Shown here: positions 3,915 through 21,676 of the stretch, one piece after another
Layout of the letters: each line of letters starts with the position of its first letter
Position numbering within the stretch: position 1 is the first letter of the stretch
Assembly: GCA_017535785.1 (NCBI GenBank)
Contig: JAFXTN010000018.1
Span: 1-46,115, forward strand
Direction of reading: 5' to 3'
Length of the DNA: 46,115 bases
From: Butyrivibrio sp.
Lineage (GTDB): Bacteria > Bacillota > Clostridia > Lachnospirales > Lachnospiraceae
The notes under the pieces: model-generated
The model's input: the letters and a program-made list of their open reading frames with translations, nothing else
Told to the model about the DNA's origin: nothing
Database searches by the model: none
Translations under genes and position numbers: made by a program

Positions 3915-5309
3915 ATGGGAAAAAGAAAGATCAAAACGATAGGTATTGTCACGTTTGTCGTGACGCTTATCATAACAACCTTCATATCATTCTTTTATCT
4001 GACAAATGCAGCCGCTACGAGGAGAGAAAAGGCCCAGTTCCTGGCCAATTCGATCAGTGAGAGGATAGAGGCTGAGATAGAATCAAGAGAATATATTACA
4101 AGGATACTTGAGATCGAGATAGCAAACGAAGACGGCGATCTCACACAGCAAGAGTTTCAGACAATGGGAGAAGCTCTTTTTAATGATTATATTGACGTAA
4201 TAAGTGTTTCACTGGCTCCGAACGGAGTCATCAGTTACATATATCCATTGGATAACGGTATCGCAGAGAGGAAGAATCTTTTTGAGGATTCCGTAGAAAA
4301 CGTATATGCGGAGAATAGCATGAGAACAGGGCTTTCTTCGATACTTGCGCCCGTTACCCTGGCCGACGGAAGTTATGGCGTGATAATAAGACGTCCTGTG
4401 TTTCTTGGGGAAAAGAACGCAGACAATTTCTGGGGCTTTGCATCGATAACATTAGGCCTGTCCGACTTTTTGTCCGAGGTAAACATCAAGGCACTTGCGG
4501 ATGAGGGCTATGAATACAAGCTTATCGGCAACAACATGCTTACAGGCGATGACCGCATAATCATGGAATATTCGGAAAAAGAGCTTGGTGCTCCGATCTC
4601 ATCGATGATAAGCACGGTCGGAGGCGACTATTGGACGCTGATGATCTCGCCGATCGGAAACTGGATGGACCTTCATGAGATAGTGATCGTATTTTTGATA
4701 GGCCTATTGTTCAGCGTACTTACTTCGGTCGCAATCTCATCATACATGTCGGTTAAGGAGAACGCAGGAGAGCTTGCGGTTTTGTCGTACACAGACTCAC
4801 TCACCAATCTTCATAACCCCAGAAGCTACAAGGAACACACGGATGATCTTATAAGTAAAAAGAGCCCGTTCGGAATCATCTATATCGATCTTAATGATTT
4901 CAAGGCGGTCAACGATACCTACGGTCACGAAGTCGGAGACGGACTCCTTAACGTAGTAGCTAAGAGGCTTCTTAACAGTATCAGGGAAAAAGATATTGCT
5001 TTCAGAATGGGCGGTGATGAATTTGTCGTTGTCATCCACGGAAAGCATGACAGATTTTTCTATGAAGATGTTATTACCAGGATAAGGGCCAATGTCGCAA
5101 GGGATGTGACTGTCGGGGATGTCACACTGAAGGTTATGATGAGCGCGGGCTTTGCAAGATTTCCGGATGACGGTGTCAATTTGGAAGATGTTGTCAAAAA
5201 AGCCGACGATGCAATGTACTCAAACAAGAGACTCATTAAGGCAAGACGCTTCGTAAGAGGCGATAAGTCTGTAAGCTTTGGAAGAGACGACGGATATACA
5301 AGAAGATAA
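3915..5309 (+). CDS. Membrane-bound CHASE-GGDEF diguanylate cyclase
   Basis: Predicted to make cyclic di-GMP from two GTP in response to an extracytoplasmic signal. It has 464 aa from the ATG at 3915, chosen because GAGG lies 6 bases upstream; a TTG at 3885 and an ATG at 3909 are alternatives. TM1 spans about residues 9-30. A CHASE-like sensor covers about 70-190 (LAPNGVISYIYPL, then RRPVF and FWGF). TM2 covers about 253-275, and the GGDEF domain about 290-440. GGDEF is intact at 366-370 (RMGGDEF), and the RxxD inhibitory site (REKD, 357-360) is present, so product inhibition is expected. The PAS-GGDEF-EAL gene follows after 38 bases. Confidence 0.9.
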   Translation: MGKRKIKTIGIVTFVVTLIITTFISFFYLTNAAATRREKAQFLANSISERIEAEIESREYITRILEIEIANEDGDLTQQEFQTMGEALFNDYIDVISVSLAPNGVISYIYPLDNGIAERKNLFEDSVENVYAENSMRTGLSSILAPVTLADGSYGVIIRRPVFLGEKNADNFWGFASITLGLSDFLSEVNIKALADEGYEYKLIGNNMLTGDDRIIMEYSEKELGAPISSMISTVGGDYWTLMISPIGNWMDLHEIVIVFLIGLLFSVLTSVAISSYMSVKENAGELAVLSYTDSLTNLHNPRSYKEHTDDLISKKSPFGIIYIDLNDFKAVNDTYGHEVGDGLLNVVAKRLLNSIREKDIAFRMGGDEFVVVIHGKHDRFFYEDVITRIRANVARDVTVGDVTLKVMMSAGFARFPDDGVNLEDVVKKADDAMYSNKRLIKARRFVRGDKSVSFGRDDGYTRR

Positions 5310-18768: not shown

Positions 18769-19203
18769 ATGAAAGTAAACGTAATAATATCACCTGAAGT
18801 TCATGAAGCATATGCGGAAATCCATACAGATAAGATGACGGAGGAGATCGGCAGAATAGTTGATATGCTTAGCACAGAGGCGGTACCCGTGACGGCGCGC
18901 GCAGGGGAAGAGCTTGTTGTACTTAGACCCGAAGATATCTATATGGTTCGTGTCGAGAACGGAGATACCGTTATTTACGGTGAAAAGAGATCATTCCGTT
19001 CAGCAAAAAGATTGTATGAACTAGCAAGCCAGCTGGGAAATAAGTTCATGCAGATCTCGAAGTCCACGCTTATAAACCTTTCATACATGGACAGTATTGA
19101 ACCGGGCTTTAGCGGAACTCTTTTGCTAAAACTTAAGAACGGATCAAAGGATTATGTTTCAAGAAAGTATTTACCACAGTTTAAGAGATATCTGGGACTC
19201 TGA
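18769..19203 (+). CDS. LytTR-family DNA-binding regulator
   Basis: A 144-aa single-domain transcription regulator. Residues about 45-140 form the LytTR beta-rich DNA-binding domain (LRPEDIYMVRVENGDTVIYG, then FMQISKSTLINLSYMDSI and VSRKYLPQFKRYL). There is no receiver domain. The ribosome site AAAGGGGAAG precedes the ATG. A DUF3021 membrane protein starts 20 bases downstream. LytTR-DUF3021 pairs (as in streptococcal HdrRM/BrsRM-type systems) typically have the membrane protein restrain the regulator. I infer the same here. Confidence 0.92.
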   Translation: MKVNVIISPEVHEAYAEIHTDKMTEEIGRIVDMLSTEAVPVTARAGEELVVLRPEDIYMVRVENGDTVIYGEKRSFRSAKRLYELASQLGNKFMQISKSTLINLSYMDSIEPGFSGTLLLKLKNGSKDYVSRKYLPQFKRYLGL

Positions 19204-19223
19204 TCTATATAAGGAGAAGCGCT

Positions 19224-19658
19224 ATGAAAGATATGATAAGAGAAATGATAAGAAATACACTGATCGCAGTAGGAATGTCATTTACTATATTTTCCCTTAC
19301 AGCAGCGGGATTTGATATCGGTAACGGCGGAGACTTCGTGCTTCGCGAGTATTCTTTTACAAAGATGGTCATAGGAGCATTGATCATCGGGATCGGCTTT
19401 GGTCTGCCAACTGTAGTCTACTCATCCGAAAAGCTTCCGATGCCTATGAAAGTCCTGATCCACATGGGGATCGGCCTCATAATATACTTCATCGTTGCAA
19501 GTAATGAAGGATGGATGGGAGATGGCAGTTCACCGGTTTTGACAGCCTGCATCGTGATCTGCCAGCTCTTTGTAACGTTCCTTATCTGGCTTATATTCAT
19601 GCTCCATTATCGCAGAGAAGCAAAAAGGATGAATGAGAAGATCCGTGAGCTCAAATAA
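19224..19658 (+). CDS. DUF3021 four-TM membrane protein
   Basis: A 144-aa DUF3021 protein with four hydrophobic helices at about 12-30, 45-66, 73-92 and 104-127 and a charged C-terminal tail (HYRREAKRMNEKIRELK). It probably inhibits or senses for the LytTR regulator encoded 20 bases upstream; this is a family-level expectation and not shown by sequence. AAGGAGA precedes the ATG. No terminator follows clearly, only an A-rich stretch. Confidence 0.9.
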   Translation: MKDMIREMIRNTLIAVGMSFTIFSLTAAGFDIGNGGDFVLREYSFTKMVIGALIIGIGFGLPTVVYSSEKLPMPMKVLIHMGIGLIIYFIVASNEGWMGDGSSPVLTACIVICQLFVTFLIWLIFMLHYRREAKRMNEKIRELK

Positions 19659-19759: not shown

Positions 19760-20650
19760 ATGGCAGAGAACGCAGGAAATTCAAATGTAATAACCAGAAA
19801 ATACTTGGATTCGCTTCTTATACAGACAAGGTTCATGAACTCGGATTATCCCGATCCGTCTTTTGAACTCTACGGAAAAGAGTTTTCATCTCCGATCATG
19901 ACGGCAGCTCTTTCGCATCTCGATCATTTCATGTTTGAGGGCGCGGCAAAAGAGTATGCTCAGGGCGCAGCAGATTCGGGCCTTCTTACATGGTACGGAA
20001 TGGCGGATGAAAAAGAGATAGAGATGATCCTTTCATGCGGAGCGACTCTTATTGAAGTGATAAAGCCCTATTCTGACAGAGATCTTATTTATAAAAAGAT
20101 CGAGCATGCAAAAGAAAACGGTGTGCTCGCTGTAGGCATTGATATCGATCACGCTTTTTCTCCCGAGGGAGGTCCCGATGAAGTTAGCGGATATACGATG
20201 GCGCCTCTTACAACAGGGGAACTAACGGATATCTGCAGCAGCACCGATCTTCCCGTTATAGTAAAAGGCGTGCTCAGTCTCTACGATACAGAGGAAGCAC
20301 TTAAGGCCGGCGCAAGAGGTATTGTGATATCACATCACAATAACCGCATAGAGTACGCGGTTCCTCCGCTTAAGATCCTTTCGGAGATTGCAAAAGAGAT
20401 TGATAATACGATCCCTATTTTCGTAGACTGCGAGATCAAAACCGGAATGGATGCTTTCAAAGCTATCGCTCTCGGAGCAGACGCTGTCTGTATCGGAAGA
20501 CCTCTTATGACTGCGATAAAAGATAACGGAGCAAAGGGCGTATGCGATTATCTTAAAAAAGCAGAAGCAGAGCTTAAAAAGACAATGGCGTTCACAGGGT
20601 GCAAGTCCATTGCGGATATCAAGAACTACAAGCTGATCACAACGATTTGA
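19760..20650 (+). CDS. FMN-dependent alpha-hydroxy-acid dehydrogenase-like protein
   Basis: A 296-aa protein of the FMN_dh/lactate oxidase superfamily. The TIM-barrel signs are clear: SSPIMTAALSHLDH near the N-terminus, PVIVKGVLS with the FMN-contacting lysine, and ISHHNNR at the position of the usual SNHGGRQ, keeping the catalytic His and Arg. VDCEIKTGMDAFKAIALGADAVCIGRPL is the phosphate-binding end. It is shorter than the usual 350-380 aa at the N-terminus, and the changed active-site loop suggests an unusual substrate. The ribosome site is AAAGGGG. The 74-nt hairpin array lies immediately downstream. Confidence 0.85.
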   Translation: MAENAGNSNVITRKYLDSLLIQTRFMNSDYPDPSFELYGKEFSSPIMTAALSHLDHFMFEGAAKEYAQGAADSGLLTWYGMADEKEIEMILSCGATLIEVIKPYSDRDLIYKKIEHAKENGVLAVGIDIDHAFSPEGGPDEVSGYTMAPLTTGELTDICSSTDLPVIVKGVLSLYDTEEALKAGARGIVISHHNNRIEYAVPPLKILSEIAKEIDNTIPIFVDCEIKTGMDAFKAIALGADAVCIGRPLMTAIKDNGAKGVCDYLKKAEAELKKTMAFTGCKSIADIKNYKLITTI

Positions 20651-20657
20651 GTAAAGC

Positions 20658-20846
20658 CACAGATAAGAACTATGCGATGATGGTTCTTATCTGTGTTTTA
20701 TTGCGATAATACCCAAAAGCCGGTAAAAAAACACAGATAACTGAAGCAGAAGAGGCATTGTTATCTGTGTTTTATTGTAATAATATCTGAAATTCGGTTG
20801 GAAATCACAGATAAATAATTGATAAGGGCTGAATTTATCTGTGATT
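20658..20846. repeat. Three hairpins in exact 74-nt register
   Basis: CACAGATAA begins at 20658, 20732 and 20806, exactly 74 bases apart, and each copy pairs with a TTATCTGTG copy. The stems are: hairpin 1, 13 bp (CACAGATAAGAAC/GTTCTTATCTGTG); hairpin 2, 12 bp (AACACAGATAAC/GTTATCTGTGTT); hairpin 3, 14 bp (AATCACAGATAAAT/ATTTATCTGTGATT). Stem flanks differ between copies but stay paired. Units 1 and 2 are followed by TTTTATTG and ATAATA. The array fills the gap between two convergent genes. The first unit could act as a weak terminator for the dehydrogenase gene. Confidence 0.9.
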
Positions 20847-20890: not shown

Positions 20891-21112
20891 TCATTCATTT
20901 TCTCCTTCCGGATCGTATTTAAGTATGTCACCCGGCTCGCATTCAAGCGCTTCGCAGATACCTGCAAGAGTTCCGAAGCGGATCGCATTTACTTTATTAT
21001 TTTTTATCTTGGACAGATTAACGTTGGCAATTCCGACCTTGTCCGCAAGGTCATTAAGAGATACGTGACGTCTTGCCATCATTACATCAAGCTCAAGTAC
21101 GATCTTTCCCAT
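20891..21112 (-). CDS. XRE-family HTH regulator (YozG-like)
   Basis: A 73-aa Cro/CI-type helix-turn-helix protein: ARRHVSLNDLADKVGIANVNLSKIKNNK with recognition helix near 27-38, followed by FGTLAGICEALECEPGDIL. It is single-domain, as usual for the HTH_26 group paired with DUF2975. AGGAGGA precedes the ATG on the minus strand. It follows the DUF2975 gene by 15 bases and shares its promoter. It probably represses that promoter through the AT-rich palindrome at 21788-21816 (inference). Confidence 0.93.
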   Translation of the reverse strand: MGKIVLELDVMMARRHVSLNDLADKVGIANVNLSKIKNNKVNAIRFGTLAGICEALECEPGDILKYDPEGENE

Positions 21113-21127
21113 ATAGCATTCCTCCTT

Positions 21128-21676
21128 TTAAAGTAATCCTTCTACATCCTTCTCAAGCTCTGCACCGTATGCAAAGTACTGAGAAAGACTAAGAGCAACT
21201 AAACCAAATAGGAATTCGCTTGCACTTATATCAATGAAAGCAGATACTCCAAATAGCATTCCGATAACTGTAATAATGATCTTTGCGATAGGAAGAGTAA
21301 TTGCAAGGAATCCGATAGTTCTAACTCTCTTAATGTTCTCGGGAGAGAAAGGTGATCCTGAATCAAGAGCAAAGATCCTATAGATGTTGTGGAAGATCGA
21401 TCCGGAGAGAATAGCAAATATTATCATCATGATACCGAAAACAAATAGTCCCGGAATATTGAACTGCCCGTCTTTAAATAATGCCTGACCTCCTTGATAT
21501 TGAAGCTGAACATTGGTAAATACATTTGAAAAAGTATGAGTAGTGAGCTGCCCTTTAGAAATCATTATAGCAAGTGCAATAAGTGAAATGGCTATAAATC
21601 CTGCTATGGCGAATGAGATTACCTCAATGATATTTGCGAGTGCTGAAGTTACTTTACTTATTGATGTTTTTTTCAT
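21128..21676 (-). CDS. DUF2975 membrane protein
   Basis: A 182-aa protein with four predicted transmembrane helices (about 15-40, 72-94, 118-138, 148-168) and the DUF2975 signature IYRIFALDSGSPFSPENIKRVRTIG between helices 2 and 3, split here as IYRIFALDSGSPF and ENIKRVRTIG. It is the first gene of a two-gene unit with the XRE regulator, an arrangement typical of Firmicutes. GGAGGATAT precedes the ATG. Its function is unknown; a membrane sensor partner for the regulator is the usual guess. Confidence 0.92.
   Translation of the reverse strand: MKKTSISKVTSALANIIEVISFAIAGFIAISLIALAIMISKGQLTTHTFSNVFTNVQLQYQGGQALFKDGQFNIPGLFVFGIMMIIFAILSGSIFHNIYRIFALDSGSPFSPENIKRVRTIGFLAITLPIAKIIITVIGMLFGVSAFIDISASEFLFGLVALSLSQYFAYGAELEKDVEGLL

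Follow-up and report, generated by a model that had tools for sequence, protein, structure and literature searches.

The three tandem palindromes described here probably form one array of a superfamily, found in rumen Butyrivibrio, in which tandem palindromes are phased with the DNA helix, made up of putative half-sites for cooperative protein binding. They lie in a window of 46,115 nucleotides, which is the whole stretch of DNA analysed and corresponds to contig C33 of a 2.9-Mb Butyrivibrio sp. assembly (90.8% complete). The preliminary description of this DNA had reported three hairpins exactly 74 nt apart, and this is indeed what is observed: the exact pattern CACAGATAA-N(4-34)-TTATCTGTG matches the window three times and has no match in 100 dinucleotide shuffles. 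The matches are 38-nt palindromes with arms CACAGATAA and TTATCTGTG, spaced by 74 and again 74 nt. Unit 1 (20658-20695, arms 20658-20666 and 20687-20695) is followed by TTTTATT. A 36-nt spacer (20696-20731) separates it from unit 2 (20732-20769, arms 20732-20740 and 20761-20769), which has an A-run before it and TTTTATT after it, and a second 36-nt spacer (20770-20805) leads to unit 3 (20806-20843, arms 20806-20814 and 20835-20843), with no T-run after it. The last palindrome stops at 20843, three nucleotides short of the end first given to the feature (20846). The stem extensions that had been described are present (GAAC/GTTC in unit 1, C/G in unit 2 and AT/AT in unit 3), and the loops of the tandem units have diverged. 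On the + strand, the predicted RNA hairpins of units 1, 2 and 3 have energies of -23.1, -16.7 and -14.3 kcal/mol (z -7.3, -5.1 and -4.5), with unit 1 scored as terminator-like on that strand. No Rfam family matches anywhere in the window at its gathering score, in agreement with the earlier remark that the feature resembles no known riboswitch.

The array is located between two convergent genes. To its left, an FMN-dependent dehydrogenase-type gene (19760-20650, + strand; Pfam FMN_dh, E 4.2e-55) ends with its stop codon 7 nt from the array; to its right is a small XRE/Cro-type HTH gene (20891-21112, - strand; Pfam HTH_26, E 4.5e-21). The latter is adjoined at 21128-21676 by a gene for a 182-aa protein that appears membrane-like by eye and has no Pfam match at E <= 0.001. 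At 18769-19658, a DUF3021 gene follows a LytTR regulator gene.

A covariance model built from 17 units was used for genome searches. In the array's own genome it recovers these 17 units, in five arrays and with no singletons: four units on contig C4, three and three on C22, four on C29 and the three of the window on C33. A search of this kind had been proposed in the preliminary description, and homologous units were found in other genomes, including other Butyrivibrio. At E <= 0.01, 17 of 61 genomes have a match, with many matches in G000, G016, G026 and G035, six in G033 (three units, one pair and one single) and one to three weak matches in each of 12 further genomes. A family-wide search at E <= 1e-4 found the units in only one of 299 genomes, the own one, but this was a shallow first look, so that absence elsewhere is weak evidence. 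The exact tandem pattern was recovered in 35 stretches of the genome contig collection and in none of the viral contigs. Its carriers are Butyrivibrio hungatei XBD2006 and NK4A153, Butyrivibrio sp. LB2008 and RGIG8012, Lachnospiraceae RUI369 and UBA1729, Clostridiales Zod_Metabat.14, Candidatus Treponema equifaecale and an Azobacteroides contig, in which the unit finder recovers only one odd 41-nt unit. A 6.7-kb contig binned as Treponema carries an array of equal geometry (74, 95, 74; L083:372-652), which reflects either transfer between phyla or mis-binning.

The resulting set comprises 218 units in 61 "arrays", six of which are single units; these units are not independent, because orthologous arrays occur among the two B. 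hungatei strains and LB2008. It was obtained with stricter seeds than a first pass and contains fewer duplicate loci; of 14 G026 loci, 8 keep an array in it, the other six falling out. Within this set, dimensions are tightly fixed. The palindromes span 36-39 nt in 217 of the 218 units and 41 nt in the remaining one; units of 37 nt number 59, and RUI369 alone supplies 54 of these. Counted with permitted spacings of 48-112, the 157 gaps between palindromes, which are not independent since arrays within a family share ancestry, fall at 24-26 nt (12), 34-37 nt (136), 46-47 nt (8) and 57 nt (1) and nowhere else, i.e. in classes that step by one helical turn. The looser first pass, in which some B. 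hungatei loci are counted twice, gave 187 spacings distributed over 61 (2), 64-65 (15), 71-76 (157), 84-86 (9) and 95 nt (1), plus one each at 140, 149 and 159 nt, the last three being accounted for by one spurious unit inside a window gene and two skipped weak units.

These distances are kept while the intervening sequence is not. Between different arrays of one genome, loops of equal length are 0.35 identical (0.27 when shuffled) and spacers 0.38 (0.28 when shuffled); within an array, identity rises to 0.54 for loops and 0.64 for spacers. Despite this divergence, loop length remains at 18-21 nt, with one loop of 23. Locus L108 of XBD2006 and locus L088 of NK4A153 have matching flanks (88% over 427 nt and 76% over 849 nt), and the arrays that these flanks enclose differ, with gaps of 25 and 36 in the former and of 47, 36 and 36 in the latter, both phased.

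Quantised spacing is not confined to the CAGATAA arm. We scanned 1.6 Mb in 80 stretches from six Butyrivibrio genomes with an arm-blind detector, which accepts any tandemly repeated palindrome at periods of 40-130; some of the scanned contigs were known to carry CAGATAA arrays, and none was picked for other families. Ten arrays of at least three units were detected, belonging to seven arm families, and all ten have periods of 53-54, 63-65, 74-75 or 84 bp. The families are CAGATAA (three arrays, period 74-75), TATGCC (74), CATGACC (64-65), CGTAGAG (63-64), CTGCTAC (53), CTGTCTA/CTGTCCA (two arrays, 54) and CATGCAT (84). Five of the arrays are in XBD2006, two each in LB2008 and G024 (400 kb scanned in each of the three) and one in G000 (200 kb); in two of the six genomes, G019 and G084, the 100 kb sampled from each contained none. 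The same detector returned no array from 4.8 Mb of a second-order Markov null. Nor was any found in 50 kb of an E. coli K-12 control, which is too little DNA to judge BIMEs. The generic detector is strict: in 183 kb of RUI369 and Zod_Metabat.14 it reported no array, missing the L084 array (within L259) that the arm-based search detects in the same DNA. In four XBD2006 loci (L066, L073, L078 and L103), arrays of two arm families lie about 0.2-4.5 kb apart, whereas 400 kb of one XBD2006 contig holds just five arm-blind arrays.

Loci fetched for other reasons added the families CACGCGA (period 53), CACCGTA (52) and TATGACT (74, 74, 74 and 63), together with GCATGTA (107 and 106, or 53 in another frame) and TTCTACG (63), which is perhaps the CGTAGAG family in another frame. 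Among these loci the sole three-unit match off multiples of 10.5 is the irregular Azobacteroides one (43, 122). We then assessed phasing across families. When each family contributes a single period, the seven from the scanned stretches give R 0.948 at 10.5 bp (p 0.0001; best pitch 10.25). Twelve entries with at least three units, two of them (RUI369 and Treponema) having variant CAGATAA arms, give R 0.908, with none of 40000 draws as high and a best pitch of 10.35. Ten entries, left after the removal of three that may share the 74-bp period by descent, give R 0.935 (p 0.00015 for any pitch). The best pitch of 18 family modes is 10.50. The RUI369 entry, with periods of about 72.4 and 61, fits least well. 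When the two-unit matches of the generic scans (74, 54, 82, 79, 60 and 63) are added, R at 10.5 drops to 0.686 (p 0.0001; best pitch 10.15), and with the irregular Azobacteroides match also included it is 0.62 (p 0.00025; best pitch 9.90).

The placement of arrays among genes was examined for 69 arrays: 55 from the CAGATAA family with two or more units, plus another 14 entries that include a single CAGATAA one. Only one of the 69 overlaps a called gene by more than 30 nt, and the arrays are thus extragenic. For the 56 with both neighbours called, the flanking genes both point rightward in 28 cases and leftward in 20, converge in 5 and diverge in 3; these 56 placements, too, are related by descent within a family and so are not independent. 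A location between divergent genes is rarer for arrays (3/56) than for intergenic gaps of at least 200 nt in the scanned stretches (44/212; Fisher p 0.005), in a comparison that uses codon-score gene calls, by which short genes may be missed, and that counts orthologous arrays more than once. Among 25 proteins encoded at array loci or close to them, Pfam scans revealed no recurrent neighbour gene and no recombinase or transposase. The proteins represent varied chromosomal functions (metabolism, transport, Rho, repair-like), and four have no family at the thresholds used. By eye, no clear terminal repeats or target duplications were seen at array edges in selected loci. Separately, L078 contains at ~4490-4640 (query 890-1041) a dispersed repeat of ~147 bp whose ends are inverted; it is present in dozens of copies across the two B. 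hungatei strains and LB2008, and related copies flank several arrays. A second repeat is found at query 590-734.

Arrays are gained or lost at orthologous sites between sister species, as seen when four of the five own-genome arrays were compared with G071 and G024. At the site of the window array, both sisters have the XRE gene and no array; by eye, a terminator-like hairpin stands there instead. At C22:213691, the flanking matches in G071 are 37 bp apart and enclose no array, and G024 has a different one, with CACGCGA arms and a period of 53. The C4 array is absent in both sisters. The C29 region is rearranged; close to the same thioesterase gene, G024 and G071 carry arrays that belong to other families. 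Two G024 contigs, C18 (end of L153) and C17 (start of L155), end inside the array of 53-bp period at the C22:213691 site, and draft assemblies may therefore hide such arrays.

The changes in the stems had been read in the preliminary description as compensating, and hence as suggesting selection on structure. We asked whether this extends beyond three units. For the 17 own-genome units, pairing and covariation were assessed by five measures, and no measure stands above shuffles. Among 214 distinct units, covariation between the arms is likewise not beyond shuffles, the lowest of 36 p-values (18 positions by two kinds of shuffle) being 0.020. Pairing just inside the arms does not rise above the shuffled level either: it is 42% at position 10 (40-45% in shuffles) and 20% at position 11 (22-34%). 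Extra pairs are thus no commoner than expected, and a structured RNA under selection is not supported. The tandem units, their diverged loops, the lack of an Rfam match and the homologues elsewhere are all supported, whereas selection on stem pairing is not. What is conserved in the larger set is the sequence of the arms and the distances and, since these distances are quantised by the helical turn of DNA, they point to the duplex rather than to RNA.

RNA could nevertheless be involved in another way, with the units acting as tandem bidirectional transcription terminators or as hairpins in 3'-UTRs. The predicted hairpins are stable, that of unit 1 is terminator-like on the + strand, the window array is flanked by convergent genes and occupies a site at which two sisters have a hairpin that looks terminator-like by eye, and arrays are rare between divergent genes. 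Against this, the arms do not covary, and runs of the expected kind accompany only half of the units: 57 of 218 have at least five T in the 8 nt after the palindrome, 64 have at least five A in the 8 nt before it, and 107 have either. No T-run follows unit 3 of the window or the three units of the C22:213691 array, and single-stranded spacers would offer no reason for quantisation at 10.5 nt. We consider such a role, as the full explanation, unlikely. A landing strip for a putative DNA-binding protein is a more probable reading of the arrays than an RNA element. The window array may also end transcription, because two of its units carry terminator-like T-runs and the sisters have a terminator-like hairpin there, and a terminator role for part of the units (the 107 above) is compatible with the half-site reading.

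Slightly less probable still is a non-autonomous mobile repeat of the REP/BIME kind, which a transposase would spread by recognising its single-stranded DNA hairpin, phasing being a by-product. The arrays are extragenic, several per genome, and present or absent at orthologous sites, and REP placement is similar according to one study (PMC3733652). However, no Y1 transposase (Pfam PF01797) was found in the own genome. Among 11 further array-bearing genomes, five have a Y1 match and six (G024, G026, G033, Zod_Metabat.14, RUI369 and RGIG8012) gave none. The own genome holds only its 17 units, with no singletons, GTAG occurs within 8 nt outside the palindrome in none of the 218 units, and one geometry is common to arms of many sequences. 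That the arrays are functionless, chance palindromes having been tandemly duplicated, appears very improbable. Duplication does predict that units are more alike within arrays than between them, as the loop and spacer identities above show. On its own, though, it leaves unexplained why periods fall at multiples of 10.5 bp across arm families and why lengths stay fixed in sequences that have diverged to near random.

Lengths constrained in helical-turn steps, arms that drift independently and a geometry shared by many arms instead suggest half-sites on one face of duplex DNA. Each palindrome would be a pair of inverted half-sites of 7-9 bp, ~26-31 bp apart in most families, and the palindromes repeat at whole numbers of helical turns (5, 6, 7, 8 and, once, 9), which would place every site on one side of the duplex. 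In the most probable mechanism, each arm family would have its own sequence-specific DNA-binding protein, which would fill the half-sites and, by binding cooperatively, build a nucleoprotein cluster along a single helical face at the ends of genes. Such a cluster could have an architectural, insulating or element-spreading role. More tentatively, and with somewhat less than even confidence, we propose a class of bacterial chromosomal element set by geometry and not by sequence: inverted half-sites phased at 10.5 bp, with arm families swapping at the same sites in sister species, each family perhaps with its own fast-changing putative DNA-binding protein. If this is true, genomes record in vivo helical phasing in many arm families, with duplex DNA and not RNA under constraint; phased protein-binding arrays could be found in any genome without a motif; and the protein acting at these gene ends becomes a testable question in Butyrivibrio hungatei. 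Among the literature matches listed (open-licence papers, as titles and the beginnings of abstracts), there were no helically phased palindrome arrays and no such Butyrivibrio repeats, which is weak evidence of novelty.

Several known systems share features with these arrays. As described in three papers, REPs are extragenic palindromes of 20-50 nt that follow a tetranucleotide, most often GTAG, usually have more than 100 copies, form clusters with regular spacing, chiefly where the adjacent genes run in one direction or converge, and are linked to RAYT/TnpA-REP (PMC2817692, PMC3733652, PMC8266576). One of these papers (PMC3733652) gives spacers of 20 to 100 bp for most REP dimers, and the word "helical" does not appear in its main text. 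The Butyrivibrio arrays resemble REPs in being extragenic, in their regular spacing and in the orientation of most neighbouring genes. In contrast to REPs, their units have no foot tag (CGTC, like GTAG, was sought within 8 nt outside the palindrome and is present in 1 of 218), the own genome, 90.8% complete, has no Y1/RAYT match, there are 17 units of this arm family, in five arrays, rather than more than 100 copies, and the periods are locked to helical turns. Because the tag, the own-genome transposase and the copy number all fail, we do not file the array as a REP. CRISPR arrays, like the Butyrivibrio arrays, have tandem repeats that are palindromic at their ends and are separated by ~36-nt spacers. 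Here, however, spacers of one array resemble one another (mean identity 0.64) and the interior of the repeat is variable; the 25 array-neighbour proteins scanned include no Cas family. In resolvase res subsites, plasmid iterons and centromeres, multiple copies of an inverted or repeated site lie along one helical face, and the distance between the centres of res I and II is near 53 bp. Helically phased operator and recombinase sites of this kind are generally single loci beside their own gene, whereas Butyrivibrio has several arrays per genome, with unrelated neighbour genes and many arm families. By analogy, the array may work like a phased operator or iteron cluster.
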